Below are positions 25,613 to 34,056 of a stretch of DNA of 34,056 nt, piece by piece. Source of the stretch: a virus; IMG/VR virus record IMGVR_UViG_3300008116_000143, positions 1 through 34,056 of that record; one strand, given 5' to 3'. Numbering within the stretch: the stretch's first letter is position 1; the number at the start of each line of letters is the position of its first letter. The notes beneath the pieces are model-generated. The model was not told where the DNA came from. It saw only the letters and a program-made list of their open reading frames with translations, and did not search any database. The position numbers and the translations under genes are program-made.

Positions 25613-26479
25613 TTAGATCTTTTTAACTACTTGCTTTTTATCCTTCTTCATAAGCCCTGCATCGGCGGTAGCAGAAGCACCAATCTGCGCTAGATCAAGT
25701 AAACTTCCTCCAAATACATAGCTACCAACGTGCTGCAACTTCATCCAAGGGCAGAACCATACTTTCATTCCAGCCTTTGCTGCATGGTAACAGAAGTTAT
25801 AGTCCTCAGACAAGTAGCGCTTTGAATCAGGATCAATAATACAATCAAAATAAGCCATAATTTCTCGGCTTCCATCAAAATGCTCAGTACGTATATGATC
25901 TGGTTTATAACTTAGTTCAGGATACGCTTTAGCATACTGCTCGAACGTCTTTCTACGTGCCATAAAGAACCCCGTACCAATTTCTAATACTTCTACTGGT
26001 TCACCTAGAGGAATTTCTCTCTGCGAATGTTTAGGGTTAAACACATAGTCGCCAACATACTTCTCTAAATCATTAGGATTCTCATCTGCAAAACCTTTGT
26101 CTACTGCAACCTTAATTTTCTCCCACGAAATACACTTCTTAGGATATGGACCTCCCATAACATCATAAGGTGTATCATCATCCATTAATGCAAGCATTGC
26201 AATAACGTCTTGTGGATTAAATCCAATATCTGAATCAATAAACATTAAATGTGTGGCGTCCGATCGCATAAACTCATCTACACAATAGTTACGTGCGCGA
26301 GTAATAAGCGATTCATTAAACAGGTAGTATAGTTGAAGAGGGATCTGATATTTTGCACAGAATGCCGATAGGTCAGCAATAGAGCGGGTATACATCCCTG
26401 CACACTGCCCACCGTACATTGGCGTAGCAACGAACAGTTTTTTCTTTTGTAGGTCTTCAATTTTAATTTCAAGTTTCAT
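25613..26479 (-). CDS. Glycosyltransferase (GT-A fold)
   Basis: The 288-residue protein shows a GT2/Anp1-like nucleotide-sugar fold: LFVATPMYGGQCAGMYTRSI, the DSD metal motif in LMFIDSDIGFNPQDV, and the acceptor-site region RYLSEDYNFCYHAAKAGMKV followed by WMKLQHVG. Phages use such enzymes to glycosylate DNA bases, host surface sugars or proteins. The gene lies just after the nucleotide cassette and before gp45. A role in decorating a modified base is possible, but it could equally act on another acceptor. Confidence 0.75.
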   Translation of the reverse strand: MKLEIKIEDLQKKKLFVATPMYGGQCAGMYTRSIADLSAFCAKYQIPLQLYYLFNESLITRARNYCVDEFMRSDATHLMFIDSDIGFNPQDVIAMLALMDDDTPYDVMGGPYPKKCISWEKIKVAVDKGFADENPNDLEKYVGDYVFNPKHSQREIPLGEPVEVLEIGTGFFMARRKTFEQYAKAYPELSYKPDHIRTEHFDGSREIMAYFDCIIDPDSKRYLSEDYNFCYHAAKAGMKVWFCPWMKLQHVGSYVFGGSLLDLAQIGASATADAGLMKKDKKQVVKKI

Positions 26480-26976: not shown

Positions 26977-27624
26977 TCATTCTCCAAAATAATAAGGATT
27001 TTCAACAGTTTCAAATTTAGCTTTTGCGATCAGTCGGTTTCGATTGAAATCAATCTTACTAACGACGTTAGGTGTGGTTTCTATACTTCCTTCAAACTTA
27101 GTAGAGGAAATATTCAACTCATGATCTAAGTACATGGGCGAAATTTCGTTACGAAAAAGATTCAGCGAAAGGTCGTCCCGATCATAATACAGGCAGCTAA
27201 AAGTACCGTCAAATTCATTCAACTCATCAAAACTCGTTCGAACACTTTCTAACATCTGCATTGTGTCCCACGATGTATTATACTTAGCTGCTTTCCCCTT
27301 GATAACTTCAGCTTTTATAATACCATTGTGCCACAGCGCTTTGTTTGGCCATGTTTGATATTTCTCTGTAATAACGGCAGGATGAATAGATTGCTCCGAG
27401 CGCATTTCGGTTGTAGGGGCCTGTACATGAACTATACCGTAATTGTTATGAGGTATTATATGCCTAGTTAAATCTATAGTTCCAAGTTTTTTTACTTCAA
27501 CAGTTAAAATACCTGTTGTAATATTATAGAGGGAGAAAGAATAAGAATGAGAACCTCTATAAGAATTAAGAGCTACAAGCTCTCTTAATGTATCAATATT
27601 CTTTGATCCGATGATTGCGCACAT
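26977..27624 (-). CDS. Class II glutamine amidotransferase domain protein
   Basis: The 215-residue protein starts Met-Cys, so cysteine 2 becomes the N-terminal nucleophile of an Ntn-type glutaminase. The fold motifs are MCAIIGSKN, LNSYRGSHSYSF (the RG substrate loop), NNYGIVHVQAPT and ALWHNGIIKAE (resembling 'L.HNGEIyN'). There is no synthetase or transferase domain, so a partner must use the ammonia. The gene overlaps the HAD gene by 40 bases and lies two genes after queC. The amidotransferase domain fused to QueC (Gat-QueC) makes archaeosine, so a similar partnership is possible here. Confidence 0.75.
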   Translation of the reverse strand: MCAIIGSKNIDTLRELVALNSYRGSHSYSFSLYNITTGILTVEVKKLGTIDLTRHIIPHNNYGIVHVQAPTTEMRSEQSIHPAVITEKYQTWPNKALWHNGIIKAEVIKGKAAKYNTSWDTMQMLESVRTSFDELNEFDGTFSCLYYDRDDLSLNLFRNEISPMYLDHELNISSTKFEGSIETTPNVVSKIDFNRNRLIAKAKFETVENPYYFGE

Positions 27625-28106
27625 AATATACCTTTCTCAAGCATGCAGTTAATTTCTATTATAGTTGATTTTGCATTTTTGTGCAAGATTGCATACCCTC
27701 CCGCAGCTTTAAAAGGATCTATACATGCTTCAGAATCGTCAATTAGTAAGGTATTTTCAAATGCGTAATTTGCTTTCTCTTTTTTAGTAAGAGTGAAATT
27801 ATAGTTAAGAGATTCAAACCCTTTATTTTCTAGCCAGAGTATTTTTTGAGCTACTACTAGACTAGAGTTAAATTTATCTGATGCACAGGAGAGTATTTCA
27901 ATGTTAACTTTTAGTCCACTGAGGCCTTGTACAAGAAGAAGGGCATCGGCACACATTGGTAGATTGGCAAATCCTTTTCTATCCACAAAATCAAACCAAT
28001 TATTTTTGTTAGGATCATCTCTGCAATTACATCCATAAATGCTTGAGTAATGCTTATCGAAGTCAGCAATGACCCCGTCCATATCTAAGTAAATAGTATC
28101 AATCAT
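27585..28106 (-). CDS. HAD-family 5'-nucleotidase-like protein
   Basis: The 173 residues show motif I YLDMDGVIADFD, a motif II region EILSCASDKF, Lys in TLTKKEKANY and motif IV LLIDDSEACI. This matches the 5'(3')-deoxyribonucleotidase-like HAD proteins of phages, which dephosphorylate nucleotides. The start overlaps the queC stop as ATGA, placing it in the deazaguanine/nucleotide operon. Confidence 0.8.
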   Translation of the reverse strand: MIDTIYLDMDGVIADFDKHYSSIYGCNCRDDPNKNNWFDFVDRKGFANLPMCADALLLVQGLSGLKVNIEILSCASDKFNSSLVVAQKILWLENKGFESLNYNFTLTKKEKANYAFENTLLIDDSEACIDPFKAAGGYAILHKNAKSTIIEINCMLEKGILCAQSSDQRILIH

Positions 28107-28879
28107 TTTAATAGTTTATCCCATGGTATGTCTGTCGAATAAGGTATCGGATCTTTTAGTTTAGCTTTACTAAAGTTAGCAATACGCTCACTGCAAGAAG
28201 GACACTTACCGCAACTTCTGCCTGAAGAATCAGGATTATAGCAAGTAAGAGTAAAATCCAGTCTAACATTTCCAATCTCCTTTGCAATTTCTAACTCTTC
28301 GTACTTTGATAAGTGACTGAAGGGAGCTAGTAATTTAACTTTATGTGTTCTATTTTGATCGGCAACAGCATTCATACTATCTACAAACTTCTGCGTTGTA
28401 TCCCAGTATCCGTATTCATCGTGTACTTGCAACCCGGTAAAGACATACGGTGCATTATGTGACTCAGCAAACGAAAATGCCAATGCATTTAATATCATAT
28501 TACGAAACGGAACATAAGTCTTAGGTTGAGGGTCACCAAGAACTTCTTTTATTGTTGGCATATTAACGTTTGTACCAGATATATTAGCGGAGATAGGCTT
28601 GGCAATCTCTCCTAAAATACCTAAGTCAAGTACATGATGTTGAATGCAAAGATACTCACAAGTTTTTTTAGCTAATTCTAATTCGCGCTTTTGCTTTTGA
28701 CCATAATCAAACGAGAGAGCAATCACTCGACTATACTTACCATCAGGTCGATGTCCGTACTTTGCATTTAAGATATAGGTCATAATAGTACTATCCAGAC
28801 CTCCAGATAGTACCGATACTACATTCTGATTATACTCAATACTTGGTAGATTACTAACAGCCTTGTCCAGGGTCATCAT
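28103..28879 (-). CDS. queC: 7-cyano-7-deazaguanine synthase QueC
   Basis: QueC converts 7-carboxy-7-deazaguanine to preQ0 using ATP and ammonia. The 258 residues start at ATG 28879 with AGGAAAGAC directly before it (an open frame continues to 28918). The PP-loop VSVLSGGLDSTIMTYIL binds ATP, and LSFDYGQKQKRELELAKK and PFRNMILNALA are typical. The zinc cluster TCYNPDSSGRSCGKCPSCSE has the four cysteines. It is the third preQ0-pathway gene in the window and overlaps the MazG-like gene. Confidence 0.95.
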   Translation of the reverse strand: MMTLDKAVSNLPSIEYNQNVVSVLSGGLDSTIMTYILNAKYGHRPDGKYSRVIALSFDYGQKQKRELELAKKTCEYLCIQHHVLDLGILGEIAKPISANISGTNVNMPTIKEVLGDPQPKTYVPFRNMILNALAFSFAESHNAPYVFTGLQVHDEYGYWDTTQKFVDSMNAVADQNRTHKVKLLAPFSHLSKYEELEIAKEIGNVRLDFTLTCYNPDSSGRSCGKCPSCSERIANFSKAKLKDPIPYSTDIPWDKLLK

Positions 28880-29066
28880 GTCTTTCCTTTTGTACTTTAT
28901 GTACATACACAACAGCATCCATAAGTTCTTCTTTTAGATGCTGTAACCATTGATCGAAGTTTAAATCATTACGCTCCGTAGTAACACCATATTTTTTAAA
29001 GCCATGTAAAGAGCGATCTACAAACTCTCCACATATTTCATTTACATTGTTATCAGGTGATTTCAT
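28854..29066 (-). CDS. Small MazG-like nucleotide pyrophosphohydrolase-type protein
   Basis: The 70-residue protein has FDQWLQHLKEELMDAVVYVH, the EExxD-type helix that binds magnesium in MazG-like NTP pyrophosphohydrolases. Only this half-domain is present, as in other short phage versions that probably form dimers. The start overlaps queF as ATGA and the end overlaps queC by 26 bases. It may remove non-canonical nucleotides. Confidence 0.7.
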   Translation of the reverse strand: MKSPDNNVNEICGEFVDRSLHGFKKYGVTTERNDLNFDQWLQHLKEELMDAVVYVHKVQKERHDDPGQGC

Positions 29067-29992
29067 TGTCTTGGTGTCTTAGTAGAAGGTACTGCTGGGT
29101 TAATAATAGAATGATCATAAAGTAGGTTCATAGAAGAAGCACGTACGGGGTTAATATCAATACCCCCTCTTCGAGTATATAAACATCCTACTAATAGCTC
29201 TTCTGGTTCAAGTAAGTCCCAGAGTCGTTTGTAGATACATTCGCAAATTTCTTCGTGAAAATGATTCTCTTTTCTCATTGAGATAATATATTGCAGAAGC
29301 GACTCATCTGTAACTCCTTTCTTACCCTTTACATGAATATACACATCACCCCAATCGGGTTGATTAGTAACACGACAGTTCGAACGTAAGGAATGTGAGC
29401 GTCGTTTAACAGCGTATTGCTCTTTTGTTGGAATAACTTCTAGAATATCAGCCGATTCGTTGTAACGATCAAATGAGATGTTTTCTACATCACAATAAAA
29501 CTCTAGAGAAATAAAATCACCATTAAAAGGTCTCACTGTATCGCTAGGGTTAATAAACAAGCAAGCTTCCACTGAGGCCGGGCCCCCAATCGCCTTTTGT
29601 AAATCATCTTCAATCATTCTTTCAATCTTGTATATCTCATCATGCGTATCAATTAAGCGAGCCATATTATAAGAGTTGAGATAAAGCTTAACTGACTTTG
29701 ATTCTACAATGTTAGGTGAATGACTATTATAAACAAATTTTAACCAGCCTGAGATAGGATAGCCATTTTTAAGAAGCGTAGAAAACTCATATGAGTTCCA
29801 GCTATCTCTTCCTACAAACGGCAACTTTTCACCATCTAACCCGTAAGCTGTTCGATTAAGCTGTCTTGGTACGGCTACTAACAGCGTTGGATCTACATTG
29901 TCAGGTGTTACGTATGGTTTAACAACCGTCCCGTCTCCCGCCTTACCCAGGTGTACTGAAACTAGTTTATTAAGTTCTTCTTGATTATCCAT
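29063..29992 (-). CDS. queF: NADPH-dependent preQ0 reductase QueF
   Basis: QueF reduces the nitrile of preQ0 to the amine of preQ1. The 309 residues are the long, two-domain type (E. coli QueF: 282). Visible are the substrate motif VESKSVKLYLNSYNM, the catalytic cysteine region LRSNCRVTNQPDWGDVYIHV, and the FHEEICECIY and YTRRGGIDINPVRAS motifs, with the catalytic Asp in PDWGD. QueF commits the pathway to the preQ1 branch. The start overlaps the kinase stop by eight bases. Confidence 0.95.
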   Translation of the reverse strand: MDNQEELNKLVSVHLGKAGDGTVVKPYVTPDNVDPTLLVAVPRQLNRTAYGLDGEKLPFVGRDSWNSYEFSTLLKNGYPISGWLKFVYNSHSPNIVESKSVKLYLNSYNMARLIDTHDEIYKIERMIEDDLQKAIGGPASVEACLFINPSDTVRPFNGDFISLEFYCDVENISFDRYNESADILEVIPTKEQYAVKRRSHSLRSNCRVTNQPDWGDVYIHVKGKKGVTDESLLQYIISMRKENHFHEEICECIYKRLWDLLEPEELLVGCLYTRRGGIDINPVRASSMNLLYDHSIINPAVPSTKTPRQ

Positions 29993-30545
29993 TATGATTT
30001 GTCCTCTTTTCTAACTCCGTATTGTAGATGTCTAGAATAAATTGAGTGCGCTGTCTTACCGATCCATTTACAAATAAAAAGTTAATGTTATGCCCACTCA
30101 TAACATCGTTAAAAATTTGTACGATGTCATCTCTAAATTCTGTATCAGTACTTCTAGTGCCGTCGTCCACAATGTCAAACTCCGGCACAATATAAAATAA
30201 AAGATCGTACAGTTGTACGGTCTTATTAAAAATTCTATATGCGAGATCTAATATTTCCTGACTTACCTTACCTTTATTTCTCAAATACTTTGTATATACC
30301 AGTCCGTCAAGAGAAGTTCTATCCGTAATCATATTGTCATGCATGAAGAGATTTACTATATGCTCTTGCATGATTAGTCTTTGAGTCACGTCACTCCCGT
30401 GCTCATTAATTAGTAAGCCATAACTTTTTACTCTACGTGTTACTTCATCACAAATAGAGTAATCTTTAAATATTGGTTCTGATCTTAATGCATTAAGTAA
30501 AGTAGTTTTACCTACAGACTGTGCTCCGCTAATCCCAATTCTCAT
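29985..30545 (-). CDS. NadR-like P-loop ATPase/kinase
   Basis: The 186-residue protein has a Walker A GISGAQSVGKTTLLNALR, then ICDEVTRRV and ITDRTSLDGLVYTKYL. This is the DR(S/T)-type motif of deoxynucleoside- and NadR-type kinases and of the AAA_28 family. A DDGTRSTDTEFRDD segment may be a lid. In phages such proteins are of unknown substrate. The gene is embedded between the formyltransferase and queF, so a role in nucleotide metabolism is likely. Confidence 0.75.
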   Translation of the reverse strand: MRIGISGAQSVGKTTLLNALRSEPIFKDYSICDEVTRRVKSYGLLINEHGSDVTQRLIMQEHIVNLFMHDNMITDRTSLDGLVYTKYLRNKGKVSQEILDLAYRIFNKTVQLYDLLFYIVPEFDIVDDGTRSTDTEFRDDIVQIFNDVMSGHNINFLFVNGSVRQRTQFILDIYNTELEKRTNHNG

Positions 30546-31089
30546 TTAACATTAACCTTGTATTTAAAAAGTCTACCCATAATTCTATAGACCTTTCCTT
30601 CAATTTGCCAATCAGACTGTCCAGTGTTTCATTTTCTTCAATCAGGCAAGCATGAAGGCGCATAATTTCTCCCTCATCTACCTCCGGTGTTACTCTGTGT
30701 ATAACCGTACCTGTGGTAGGTAGTTTAAGCTCTAATGCTTTCTTTTGCGGGTCTTTACCCTTAAGTATAGGATAAGTTCTAATGTCTCCTGGATGGCCGT
30801 TATATACTTCAAACTTCTCGCAGATGTCAGCCGGAAGAATTCTTAGATACCCATGTAGTGTAATAAGCCACTTCCCGTTATACTCCTCTCTTAGGAAGTC
30901 CATAATTATATCATGCTTCCATTTTACGATGTTAAAATTATTAACCGAGGTATGAAAGGTAGACTCGTTTAAATTGTTAGTAAAAACGATTGAGGGTTGG
31001 TATCCCAGTCGTTCACAAATGCCTACTAACTCGGAGCCAGATTGGCTGAACATAGCAATCCAGCCCTTTTTAACAGGTAAACTATCCAT
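30529..31089 (-). CDS. PurN-like formyltransferase, candidate DpdN
   Basis: The start at 31089 (MDSLPVKKGWIAMFSQSGSE) overlaps the DpdA stop by eight bases and gives 186 residues. A longer frame to 31146 with GAGG upstream is also possible. The formyl-transfer fold shows SGSELVGICERLGYQPSIVF, then LITLHGYLRILP with the typical Gly-Tyr-Leu, and YNGHPGDIRTYPILKGKDP with the Asn/His of the active site, and GTVIHRVTPEVDEGEIM. A phage dPreQ1 formyltransferase named DpdN has been reported for N-formylating preQ1 in DNA. QueF and DpdA next door make that role likely here. PurN-type purine synthesis is the alternative. Confidence 0.75.
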   Translation of the reverse strand: MDSLPVKKGWIAMFSQSGSELVGICERLGYQPSIVFTNNLNESTFHTSVNNFNIVKWKHDIIMDFLREEYNGKWLITLHGYLRILPADICEKFEVYNGHPGDIRTYPILKGKDPQKKALELKLPTTGTVIHRVTPEVDEGEIMRLHACLIEENETLDSLIGKLKERSIELWVDFLNTRLMLNENWD

Positions 31090-31870
31090 TACAGATAGCT
31101 CTGAAACATTCAATATTGTAGAGGACTTTTTCAAGAGTTCCATCATCCACCTCTTGGTTAATCATAGTAAATAATTTTTGTGAAGGTTTATCTTCCAAAC
31201 CGTCTTCACCTTTGTATCGCATTCCCTTTAAGCCCGCAACGACGGGGTTTGAAGTATCGATAGAATCGAGCCAGGTAAAATCACGGTATGAGGAAAATTC
31301 TTGCGGGAGGCCACATCCGAGGAGGTGATGAGGTTTCTGTGTGTTGATAATCCCGGTATGGAGTAGATGGTGTAAAAGTGCGTCCCGTCCGTACATGTAA
31401 TGATGATACACTGTCGGGAGTTTTCCATTTACATTTTCGTCCACAAAGAATGAATAATCAAATGAGAATGCAACCTTATCTACTCGAGGTTCTACTTCCT
31501 CATAACACCAAATAATATCCTCTAAGCTCTTACCTTGAACTACTCCTATAGTTTTACACCCAGCAACAGGCTCCCAGTTAAGTAAGCGTGCTACTGTTCC
31601 TTCTGCATCTTCCAATACATCAGGAATAATATAATAATCAGGCATTAACTTCTCAATCCAGCCACGATACTTTTCTGAATCAAATGCCTCGCCAAGTTCA
31701 AAGATAGAGTTATCAAGAATAATCTCTCGACCCTTTTCTTTTGCTCGTTTAAACTTAGCCCAATACTCTTCACTCTCCTCAAACAAATGCACTAAAGCAT
31801 AATCGTAATCAGTAACTTCTTGTACGTGATTAAAAATAGAAAGAGGTGCTTCGTGTGCAATTTTAGCCAT
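31082..31870 (-). CDS. dpdA: DNA guanine transglycosylase, DpdA-like
   Basis: The start at 31870 (MAKIAHEAPLSIFNHVQEVT) has AGGAG upstream and overlaps the preceding stop. The 262-residue protein matches the TIM-barrel of phage transglycosylases related to tRNA-guanine transglycosylase: ILDNSIFELGEAFD, YYIIPDVLEDAEGTV, TIGVVQGKSLEDI, KVAFSFDYSF, LLGCGLPQEFS and WLDSIDTSNPVVAG. Such DpdA enzymes exchange guanine in DNA for 7-deazaguanine derivatives, protecting it from restriction. The preceding pathway genes support the assignment. The subfamily cannot be stated from sight. Confidence 0.8.
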   Translation of the reverse strand: MAKIAHEAPLSIFNHVQEVTDYDYALVHLFEESEEYWAKFKRAKEKGREIILDNSIFELGEAFDSEKYRGWIEKLMPDYYIIPDVLEDAEGTVARLLNWEPVAGCKTIGVVQGKSLEDIIWCYEEVEPRVDKVAFSFDYSFFVDENVNGKLPTVYHHYMYGRDALLHHLLHTGIINTQKPHHLLGCGLPQEFSSYRDFTWLDSIDTSNPVVAGLKGMRYKGEDGLEDKPSQKLFTMINQEVDDGTLEKVLYNIECFRAICNG

Positions 31871-32249
31871 TAAGATTATACTCCTGTTGGGCGTGCGCTC
31901 GATCACGCTCTCGTTTTTGATAGTACTTCGTCCCTAGAAATTCCATACGCGTAATAATTTCGTTTACTTGAGGTTGTTCTAGCTTTACAATTTCGGTCAC
32001 ACCACTAATCTTTTCCTCTAACCAGAAGTTCTTTGGGTAGAAAGCTTTAAATGCTTCTTCTACTCCTTTCATTTCTTCTAGAGGTCCGGCTATCGTTTTC
32101 ATTATTTTAATGTCCCAACTTTCATACTGCTCGGGAGAATGTTTAAAACGATCTAATGCATCCCACGAACCAGTATGTCCGAATTTATAAAAGACCTCTT
32201 TGGTCTTCTTATCTGTAAACCTGGCAAAATACATCTTACCTATGTTCAT
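31863..32249 (-). CDS. GIY-YIG-like (T5orf172/MUG113-type) protein
   Basis: The 128 residues begin MYFARFT (after an N-terminal MNIGK), continuing with KEVFYKFGHTGSWDALDRFK. Such sequences are typical of T5orf172-type GIY-YIG-like domains, in which the second Tyr and the Arg of the 'K-G-T...RF' block remain. EEAFKAFYPKNFWLEEKISG could supply the final acidic residue. The exact nuclease activity is uncertain. It overlaps the dpdA start and its upstream neighbour as ATGA. Confidence 0.5.
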   Translation of the reverse strand: MNIGKMYFARFTDKKTKEVFYKFGHTGSWDALDRFKHSPEQYESWDIKIMKTIAGPLEEMKGVEEAFKAFYPKNFWLEEKISGVTEIVKLEQPQVNEIITRMEFLGTKYYQKRERDRAHAQQEYNLNG

Positions 32250-32536
32250 AACACCATCCTTAAAAGTCCTACTGTATCAATTGTGGTAAGTAGTAAATAG
32301 TTTGCTAGAAGGCCAAAAGACCTTCTCGTCCAGGAAGCCCATGCATATAATGCACAACCGGCAATCCAAACAGGATAGAGAGCGAGTAATGGAGGATTGG
32401 GTACAGTAAGAGCCATAGTGATACTACAGCCAATACTAATAGCCCAGGCCAGGACCTCAATAGCAAAGCGTAACCGATTCGACTTAAAGTCGTCCTTAAT
32501 CCAGTCAAAGATTCCACCAATAACCCCTTCATTCAT
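32246..32536 (-). CDS. Membrane protein with three predicted spans
   Basis: The start at 32536 overlaps the preceding stop as ATGA (a TTG three bases upstream is an alternative). The 96 residues have hydrophobic segments at about 25-42, 48-66 and 73-90 (AIEVLAWAISIGCSITMALT, LLALYPVWIAGCALYAWASW). Tryptophans flank the spans. Similar proteins occur in other T4-like phages near folE. The function is unknown. Confidence 0.65.
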   Translation of the reverse strand: MNEGVIGGIFDWIKDDFKSNRLRFAIEVLAWAISIGCSITMALTVPNPPLLALYPVWIAGCALYAWASWTRRSFGLLANYLLLTTIDTVGLLRMVL

Positions 32537-32802
32537 CAAACCCCCTTACCTTCACCTGCTAAAAAGTAGTTAGTTACTTTTTGCATCATAACAGTTTTAC
32601 TTTGAGTGCGACTAAGTTCGTCCTTGAAGCGGAGTTTAGTAGCGTCTTTTCCACTTGACTGATTAATAACATTGATGCATTGCTCTCTAAACGTTTCTAC
32701 TGACGCAATTGGAAAAAGAGCAAAGAGTTGGGTCATCGTCTCACTACCAATTCCATCTTCTTTAACACGATTACGAGAGTTAGTCTGAGTATTAAGTTGC
32801 AT
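32536..32802 (-). CDS. Unrecognised 88-residue protein
   Basis: The protein begins MQLNTQTNSRNRVKEDGIGS and contains TMTQLFALFPIASVETFREQ and KTVMMQKVTNYFLAGEGKGV. It is predicted helical, without membrane segments. It directly follows the 32828-32856 promoter with AGGAGACCGTA before the ATG and heads the operon running through dpdA to queC. Confidence 0.6.
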   Translation of the reverse strand: MQLNTQTNSRNRVKEDGIGSETMTQLFALFPIASVETFREQCINVINQSSGKDATKLRFKDELSRTQSKTVMMQKVTNYFLAGEGKGV

Positions 32803-32827
32803 TACGGTCTCCTAAGTTAACATCTAT

Positions 32828-32856
32828 ATTATAATATAACTTAGAAATTATATCAA
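32828..32856 (-). promoter_or_regulatory. Sigma70-like promoter of the DpdA/QueF/QueC operon
   Basis: TTGATA (32851-32856) and a perfect TATAAT (32828-32833) on the minus strand are separated by 17 bases. The motif GGTTGATATAATTTCTAAG matches the consensus of the other promoters. It lies in the 74-base gap between folE and the 88-residue gene, so folE/queD and the downstream genes can be expressed separately. Confidence 0.8.
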
Positions 32857-32876
32857 CCCTACAACTTGCTCCGGTA

Positions 32877-33569
32877 TTACAGCTTCTCCCCATACGTCTG
32901 CTGTAGTGCTATGTTATCGAAGAACTCTTTCTTTACTGACGCGTCATGAAACTGTCCGTGTAGAACGGTTGTTTGAGTTAGAGAGGATTGTGCCATAATA
33001 CCTCTATTTTCACAACAGCCATGCTTTGCAGCAATATAGACAGCTACGTCCTGTGATTCAGTTGCATCCATAATTGACTTGGCAATCTGATTACACAGTT
33101 CCTCCTGAAGAGTTCCTCTCCTAGCATGCCACTGCGCAATACGGGTGTACTTGGATAACCCAATTACTTTATTACTAGGAATAATTCCAATGTACGCAAC
33201 CCCTCTTACCGGCTGATGATGGTGTGAACAAAGAGATTTTAACTCTGACCGTACCACAAGCATGCCCGAGTACCTATCATCACTATCGTTAGGAAATGCG
33301 GTAGAATCGGGTGCAGGGTCATATCGCCCGGCCATAATTTCGTTGTAGTACATTTTAGCTAGTCGACGAGCAGTCCCTTTAGAATTAGGATCAGTCTCTC
33401 GATCAATTAAAAGCGCATCTAATACCTTTTCAAATGCTTCCGTAGCTTCATCTATTAAATGTATCTTAGATGCCTCTACGACATACTCACTAACATTATC
33501 TCCGGCCCAAAAGCGCTTACCATCCGACCTCATTCGTTCTCTAAGTACTTGCGATAAATTTTTTTCCAT
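32877..33569 (-). CDS. folE: GTP cyclohydrolase I (FolE)
   Basis: FolE converts GTP to dihydroneopterin triphosphate, the first step toward preQ0. The 230-residue protein has the zinc/active-site motif SLCSHHHQPVRGVAYIGIIP, then SKYTRIAQWHARRGTLQEEL and the third zinc ligand in KHGCCENRGIM. The Cys-x-x-x-Arg-Gly end of the motif matches the usual 'HgCMxxRGi' pattern with Met replaced by Cys. GAGGAAC is just upstream of the ATG. It follows queD and a YdcH-like gene. Confidence 0.95.
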   Translation of the reverse strand: MEKNLSQVLRERMRSDGKRFWAGDNVSEYVVEASKIHLIDEATEAFEKVLDALLIDRETDPNSKGTARRLAKMYYNEIMAGRYDPAPDSTAFPNDSDDRYSGMLVVRSELKSLCSHHHQPVRGVAYIGIIPSNKVIGLSKYTRIAQWHARRGTLQEELCNQIAKSIMDATESQDVAVYIAAKHGCCENRGIMAQSSLTQTTVLHGQFHDASVKKEFFDNIALQQTYGEKL

Positions 33570-33571
33570 TA

Positions 33572-33763
33572 TTAAAGTTCCTCAAGCTTTTTTTTGTAAT
33601 GCTCAATTTGATCTTTCAATTCTAGTTTTTTCTTTTTTAACATCCTTACATGTATGTCATCATCGTATTGACGGTAGTTAACTTCTATTTGCTTATCAAC
33701 TGCTTGATGTAAATCTTCTAGATGCATAATAAACTCTTCCATTTCACGTTTTGTCATAATCAT
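33572..33763 (-). CDS. YdcH/DUF465-like small protein
   Basis: The 63 residues MIMTKREMEEFIMHLEDLHQ to the charged VRMLKKKKLELKDQIEHYKK helix fit the YdcH (DUF465) family of short coiled-coil proteins, whose role is unknown. It starts at ATG 33763 after GAGGGGCTG and adjoins the queD stop. It lies between queD and folE and is probably only a bystander. Confidence 0.65.
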   Translation of the reverse strand: MIMTKREMEEFIMHLEDLHQAVDKQIEVNYRQYDDDIHVRMLKKKKLELKDQIEHYKKKLEEL

Positions 33764-34056
33764 CTACAGCCCCTCAAATAAATTCTCTTCCCACTCTCTA
33801 TGACCTTCTCTAAAAGCCATATTAGCTTGCGTTTCTCTAACTTCTACTCTAAAGCACCAAAGCCGACTTGCTTCTCCCGGGCCCCAGTAATCAGGTACAT
33901 AAACGCCATTAATATACTTGTACAACATATCGGCTAGCCCTTCACACCCTAACCTTGGTAGAACAGTAAGTTTAGCTAACTTAAGTCTTTCAAGTTCGTG
34001 AAATTTTTCAATTAATGGATCATCTTGAGCAACTAGTAAGGTATGATCGAATTGAT
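33764..34056 (-). CDS. queD: 6-carboxy-tetrahydropterin synthase QueD (partial)
   Basis: The TAG at 33764-33766 ends a frame open to the window edge (96 codons). It contains FDHTLLVAQDDPLIEKF (the QueD 'lDH..L' block), then LGCEGLADMLYKYI with the catalytic Glu, and SRLWCFRVEVRETQANMAF, the 'V.V.ET' terminus. The N-terminus with the zinc histidines is beyond the edge. QueD makes 6-carboxytetrahydropterin after FolE. The end extends as ...EGHREWEENLFEGL, longer than usual. Confidence 0.85.
   Translation of the reverse strand, partial: QFDHTLLVAQDDPLIEKFHELERLKLAKLTVLPRLGCEGLADMLYKYINGVYVPDYWGPGEASRLWCFRVEVRETQANMAFREGHREWEENLFEGL

Follow-up and report, generated by a model that had tools for sequence, protein, structure and literature searches.

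A probable immuto-type 7-deazaguanine DNA modification operon in an environmental tailed phage, with candidate enzymes for formylation, ammonia supply and guanine salvage

The window analysed here, the whole 34,056-base stretch of IMG/VR virus record IMGVR_UViG_3300008116_000143, is a fragment of a tailed phage whose record is classed as linear. From position 34056 down to 26977, its minus strand carries one run of mostly overlapping genes that probably constitutes a 7-deazaguanine DNA modification operon of the type found in Flavobacterium phage immuto, with formylated 7-aminomethyl-7-deazaguanine (preQ1) as its predicted product, a glutaminase that would supply ammonia and a phosphoribosyltransferase (PRT) that would salvage guanine. 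The general modification system is already known; the roles proposed for the two helper enzymes are the new part. Protection from restriction enzymes is the most likely benefit of the modification.

Gene content and proposed pathway

An initial annotation of the window had named a partial queD, folE, queC, queF and a dpdA-like gene lying on one strand with overlapping ends. All of these genes were named correctly and are present on the minus strand, mostly overlapping, but the list omitted a formyltransferase, a P-loop kinase, an NT5C-like nucleotidase and a class-II amidotransferase. Transcription would run from the C-terminal part of QueD through a 63-residue protein, FolE and three small proteins to DpdA, and then through the formyltransferase, the P-loop kinase, QueF, a 70-residue protein, QueC and the NT5C-like nucleotidase to the class-II glutaminase. 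Between queD and the dCTP-deaminase-like (DCD-like) gene that follows the run, a single gap exceeds 2 bp (74 bp), and all other junctions abut or overlap.

We read past the end of the window on contig IMGVR_UViG_3300008448_012396 (L003), which is 100% identical to window positions 27795-34056 (6,262 bp) and extends beyond them. Because this contig carries a full queD and also queE, the pathway to 7-cyano-7-deazaguanine (preQ0), comprising FolE, QueD, QueE and QueC, is complete; queE lies just past the window end, where the initial annotation had expected it. The same gene order recurs in dozens of other IMG/VR contigs, and chance is therefore excluded. An impression from Pfam matches that two 164-kb relatives lack queE was overturned when a direct search found the gene in them.

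Gene presence, gene order, predicted fold, active-site conservation and co-occurrence were observed here, and from them we infer each reaction below, together with the final formylation, how much guanine is replaced, the supply of ammonia and the salvage of guanine. FolE, QueD and QueE would convert GTP to 7-carboxy-7-deazaguanine, which QueC, using ammonia from the glutaminase, would convert to preQ0. QueF would reduce preQ0 to preQ1, and DpdA would exchange guanine in phage DNA for preQ1; to this point the scheme is the one already proposed for the window, and each step now has support from an individual gene. Before or after insertion, the formyltransferase would formylate the aminomethyl nitrogen, giving 2'-deoxy-7-(formylamino)methyl-7-deazaguanosine. 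The PRT, which resembles Gpt, probably turns the guanine released by DpdA into GMP, which would replenish the GTP on which FolE draws and remove a product of the exchange.

A transglycosylase-fold protein related to phage DNA-modifying enzymes

The putative DpdA shares 55.6-57% identity with the protein of phage immuto that is annotated as a DNA guanine transglycosylase, 35-37% with proteins from CP220-type phages of Campylobacter, and 15-21% with those of phages 9g (21%), 6E35.1a and pf16. By sequence it belongs with the immuto and CP220 proteins, which we take to define the DpdA3 subfamily, rather than with DpdA1 or DpdA2. An AlphaFold2 model built with 15 relatives has a predicted local distance difference test (pLDDT) score of 64 and a predicted template modelling (pTM) score of 0.70. 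When this model was compared with the PDB by Foldseek, the 50 best matches were all tRNA-guanine transglycosylases (TGTs; best E value 2e-6), so that the membership in the transglycosylases assumed in the initial annotation holds. Motifs resembling those of TGT (LDNS, VVQG, LLG and IDTSNP) are kept across the family and align with TGT active-site segments. The model and motifs point to a TGT-fold enzyme, and its relatives suggest that it acts on DNA rather than tRNA. Such an enzyme sits inside the operon in all relatives examined, and a single scan found at least 507 contig stretches that encode DpdA relatives. A hypothetical protein of Brevundimonas phage StAshley (L197:6975-7775), encoded after queE, also matches the profile of this DpdA group (E value 1e-7) and is probably an unrecognised DNA transglycosylase.

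QueF, formylation and the final base

In QueF, residues C206, D213, H246, E247 and E97 align with the active site of the E. coli enzyme, and the QueF_N and QueF domains are both present, which argues for a two-domain nitrile reductase with its catalytic residues; QueF and QueF-L are hard to distinguish by similarity (Hutinet 2019). The protein is 44% identical to QueF of Vibrio phage 6E35.1a; in the DNA of that phage, 15% of deoxyguanosine (dG) carries a modification whose mass fits the deoxynucleoside of preQ1 (dPreQ1; PMC12028318).

The catalytic triad of the formyltransferase (N116, H118 and D157) is invariant. Among 64 DpdA loci with enough downstream sequence, the enzyme is present in 59 of the 60 that have QueF and in none of the four that do not. 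Because the DpdA tree shows a single change in QueF, this tracking fits a joint function of the two enzymes and is not independent statistical proof of it. Because the operon includes this gene, formylated preQ1 is a likelier end product than preQ1, and the enzyme is a candidate preQ1/dPreQ1 formyltransferase. Cui and colleagues reportedly gave the name DpdN to a dPreQ1 formyltransferase in 2023; they are also said to have called the nucleoside fdPreQ1 and to have linked DpdA3 to complete guanine replacement.

Guanine in this phage had initially been thought to be partly replaced by preQ1 or a derivative. A preQ1-type base is retained in our reading, with the formylated form favoured over preQ1, but "partly" may understate the extent: after immuto, the nearest DpdA relatives are those of Campylobacter phages, which a passage of PMC8713573, citing Crippen 2019, reports to replace guanosine with deazaguanosine. 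By analogy, replacement in the window phage is possibly near-complete, extending to nearly all guanine. Four contigs (L154, L155, L156 and L157) encode a distant DpdA of this group together with QueC and the glutaminase; no QueF or formyltransferase was found in them, and a different final base is therefore expected there.

A stand-alone glutaminase that accompanies one QueC lineage

QueC has the motifs SGGLDS and C(x)9CxxCxxC. Its closest phage homologs, 46-61% identical, belong to pf16 and to Vibrio phages of the KVP40 type, and those records of this group that were found in both the QueC and the glutaminase searches carry the glutaminase. Most phage records with the glutaminase list it as hypothetical. 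The glutaminase profile matches the glutaminase domain of GlmS (2.8e-5), and the predicted structure (pLDDT 93.8) matches GlmS, PurF and EgtC in fold. Cys2, H99-N100-G101 and D120 are invariant. With an N-terminal Cys, a His-Asn-Gly motif and a predicted N-terminal nucleophile (Ntn) fold, the protein has the features of a class-II enzyme.

The glutaminase occurs only with one lineage of QueC. A single change in glutaminase presence is counted on a tree of 58 QueC sequences, against 7.6 in shuffles, and none of 500 shuffles gave so low a number. The DpdA tree shows four independent changes, and in each of them the glutaminase switches along with the QueC lineage. QueC was typed by tree and pairwise scores; iterated profiles had mixed the two types, with the same outcome. 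Because QueC uses ammonia (PMC13329287), the simplest reading of this pairing is that the glutaminase supplies it. We did not find the pairing described in the searchable literature, although other papers may describe it.

A phosphoribosyltransferase and a kinase in the operon

The best matches of the PRT profile, from 1.4e-20, are to purine and xanthine-guanine phosphoribosyltransferases, with E. coli Gpt at 1.6e-12, and the protein keeps a Trp aligned with the Trp of Gpt that presumably stacks on the base. Only seven of 50,697 phage records contain a PRT match. All seven have preQ0 genes, and they fall into three phage groups: four immuto phages, two Brevundimonas phages (gene after folE) and Synechococcus phage BUCT-ZZ01 (gene after queE). 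A query with E. coli Gpt itself adds only four unannotated records, two of which are short fragments 98% identical to the bacterial gene. Among related contigs with enough upstream sequence, 29 of 42 have the PRT. These associations suggest that the enzyme salvages guanine released by DpdA. This association, too, was not found described in the searchable literature, and other papers may describe it.

The P-loop kinase has PDB profile matches to 8puu (1.2e-3) and NadR (5e-3). It also adjoins dpdA in CP220-type phages, where no formyltransferase was found nearby, and for this reason the formylated base is unlikely to be its substrate. Raw counts of 43:1 versus 9:10 suggested that the PRT and the kinase are functionally linked, but this signal disappeared on the DpdA tree, when ancestry was corrected for, and the link is not claimed.

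Relationship to known systems

Phage immuto_2-6A (NC_055915) has queE, PRT, folE, dpdA, formyltransferase, kinase and queF in the same order as the present operon, and its DpdA and Que genes are annotated as such. However, its queD precedes queE, its QueC is of another type (27% identical) encoded about 15 kb away, and no glutaminase was found. Phages 6E35.1a and pf16 share the QueC lineage and the consecutive arrangement of queF, queC and stand-alone glutaminase, whereas their transglycosylase is of another, longer type (440-458 aa) and the regions examined hold no formyltransferase or kinase. The CP220-type phages (firehammerviruses), apart from their DpdA, have the same P-loop kinase directly downstream of it; unlike the window phage, they have no QueF, formyltransferase or glutaminase near dpdA, and their reported modification is 2'-deoxy-7-amido-7-deazaguanosine (dADG). 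Enterobacteria phage 9g, which makes 2'-deoxyarchaeosine (dG+), likewise has FolE, QueD, QueE, QueC and a transglycosylase, but its glutamine amidotransferase (Gat) domain is fused to QueC, it has no QueF, and its DpdA is distant.

Alternative readings

It is conceivable that the final base is unformylated preQ1 and that the formyltransferase is an auxiliary PurN boosting purine synthesis, as in cyanophages. The nearest solved relative of the enzyme is indeed PurN, purN-like genes occur in phages (phrog_9240), and 6E35.1a, which has QueF and no formyltransferase gene in the 20 kb examined, contains dPreQ1. However, the formyltransferase gene is flanked by dpdA and by the kinase gene adjoining queF, and it tracks QueF among the loci described above. 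In addition, all aligned phage formyltransferases have Glu where the GxGSN loop of PurN has an Asn, presumably a ligand of the glycinamide ribonucleotide (GAR) phosphate, and matches to the enzyme among the 50,697 phage records are limited to immuto phages. On this balance we consider this reading unlikely.

We hold it to be quite improbable that the glutaminase and QueC form a split version of the Gat-QueC archaeosine synthase, such that amidino-bearing dG+ would accompany or take the place of preQ1. Phage 9g does make dG+ with its Gat-QueC (PMC6884629), and the glutaminase profile weakly matches the 9g Gat domain; but QueF is intact, and 6E35.1a, which has queF, queC and a related glutaminase, carries its modified dG as dPreQ1. 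In our reading of the alignment, the Arg of the 9g Gat motif is not present in the window glutaminase. Moreover, Gat-QueC is a single chain, and here QueC and the glutaminase are encoded by separate genes with the NT5C-like gene between them. The operon could also raise queuosine in host tRNA during infection, with DNA not the target, since the preQ1 pathway is common to queuosine and some phages carry preQ1-pathway genes without DpdA (PMC6884629). This we judge very improbable, given that a TGT-fold enzyme akin to annotated DNA transglycosylases lies in the operon in all relatives examined and that deletion of DpdA in phage CAjan abolishes DNA modification (PMC6884629).

Several observations nevertheless count against the reading we prefer, an immuto-type operon that makes formylated preQ1 for DNA with ammonia supplied by the glutaminase and guanine salvaged by the PRT. 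The transglycosylase sequence matches neither a Pfam family nor a PDB entry; because these searches gave nothing usable, the fold comparison was used instead. Alignment of its family with E. coli TGT by hhalign is weak, as are the scores with 9g DpdA, and confidence in the model is modest, being lowest in the C-terminal third around the proposed nucleophile. The formyltransferase could use another amine. In all 29 aligned glutaminase members, Gln (Q68) replaces the glutamine-binding Arg (R73 in GlmS), a residue that presumably binds the glutamine carboxylate; the protein was therefore classed as class-II amidotransferase-like within the Ntn enzymes, with no assumption about its nitrogen donor. 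The concordance of QueC lineage and glutaminase in four of four changes comprises too few events for significance (sign test p 0.125). The PRT is absent from CP220 and several relatives, which shows that some of these phages do without it. The proposal of complete replacement comes from reports on other phages, and the modified base of the window phage is predicted from its genes.

Feature coordinates and neighbouring genes

Table 1. Genes of the putative modification operon in the window and, where marked L003, on the overlapping contig, with supporting matches (E values).
Feature	Position	Strand	Support
queE	L003:6349-7194		phrog_2076, 1.5e-54
Phosphoribosyltransferase gene, between queE and queD	L003:7182-7637
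Full queD	L003:7607-8143		PF01242 4e-13
QueD-like 6-carboxy-tetrahydropterin synthase, C-terminal part	33764-34056	-	phrog_2389 9e-14
FolE, GTP cyclohydrolase I	32877-33569	-	PF01227 1.9e-40
Putative DpdA-type DNA guanine transglycosylase, DpdA3-like by relatives	31082-31870	-	relatives, predicted fold, motifs
Formyltransferase, candidate preQ1/dPreQ1 formyltransferase (DpdN-like)	30529-31146	-	PF00551 1.6e-9
P-loop kinase, NadR/deoxynucleoside-kinase-like	29985-30545	-	PF13521 2.4e-17
QueF, 7-cyano-7-deazaguanine reductase, two-domain	29063-29992	-	PF14819 8e-29, PF14489 2.6e-19
Small ORF, 70 aa, between queF and queC	28854-29066	-	phrog_17558 2.6e-17; no Pfam match; kept in 16 loci
QueC, preQ0 synthase, glutaminase-associated lineage	28103-28876 (start 28876 or 28918)	-	PF06508 5e-51
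NT5C-like 5'-deoxyribonucleotidase	27585-28106	-	phrog_2643 7.8e-29; some relatives without it
Stand-alone class-II (Ntn) glutaminase	26977-27624	-	phrog_12378 2.6e-45

The window phage has T4-type replication genes, including a gp45-type clamp and a Gp44-type loader, and its DNA polymerase shares about 50% identity with those of cyanophages; at the DNA level, no isolated phage was found to match the window closely. In the QueE of L003, the third cluster Cys is displaced: most relatives have CX3C followed by a Cys 33-35 residues on, and QueE of Pseudomonas phage pf16 has a similar Cys layout. The DCD-like gene (dCTP-deaminase/dUTPase-like, PF22769; 26482-26976) contains a premature in-frame stop at codon 104. 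The near-identical contig L023 has a sense codon at this position and reads through to 164 aa, such that the stop in the window may be a sequencing error. A frameshift was rejected as its cause, since the stop arises by substitution. The protein encoded after the operon at 25613-26479 has a weak glycosyltransferase-like match (Anp1, 0.002; phrog_1574) and is conserved, at 64-100% identity and likewise behind the operon, in 14 related loci.

Implications

Replacing its guanine protects phage DNA from many restriction enzymes. If the exchange by DpdA takes place after replication, one guanine is freed with every swap, and we found no account of the fate of this guanine in the searchable literature. 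The gene associations described here offer a simple, testable answer. We tentatively suggest, as an idea slightly less likely than not, that phages replacing most of their guanine have a dedicated supply loop. In it, a stand-alone glutaminase that co-evolved with one QueC lineage would provide that QueC with nitrogen, and a Gpt-like PRT would recover the guanine set free by DpdA for rebuilding into the modified base, drawing the exchange towards completion. The uncharacterised glutaminase would be the likely nitrogen source for that QueC lineage, and modules of this type are widespread in environmental viruses.

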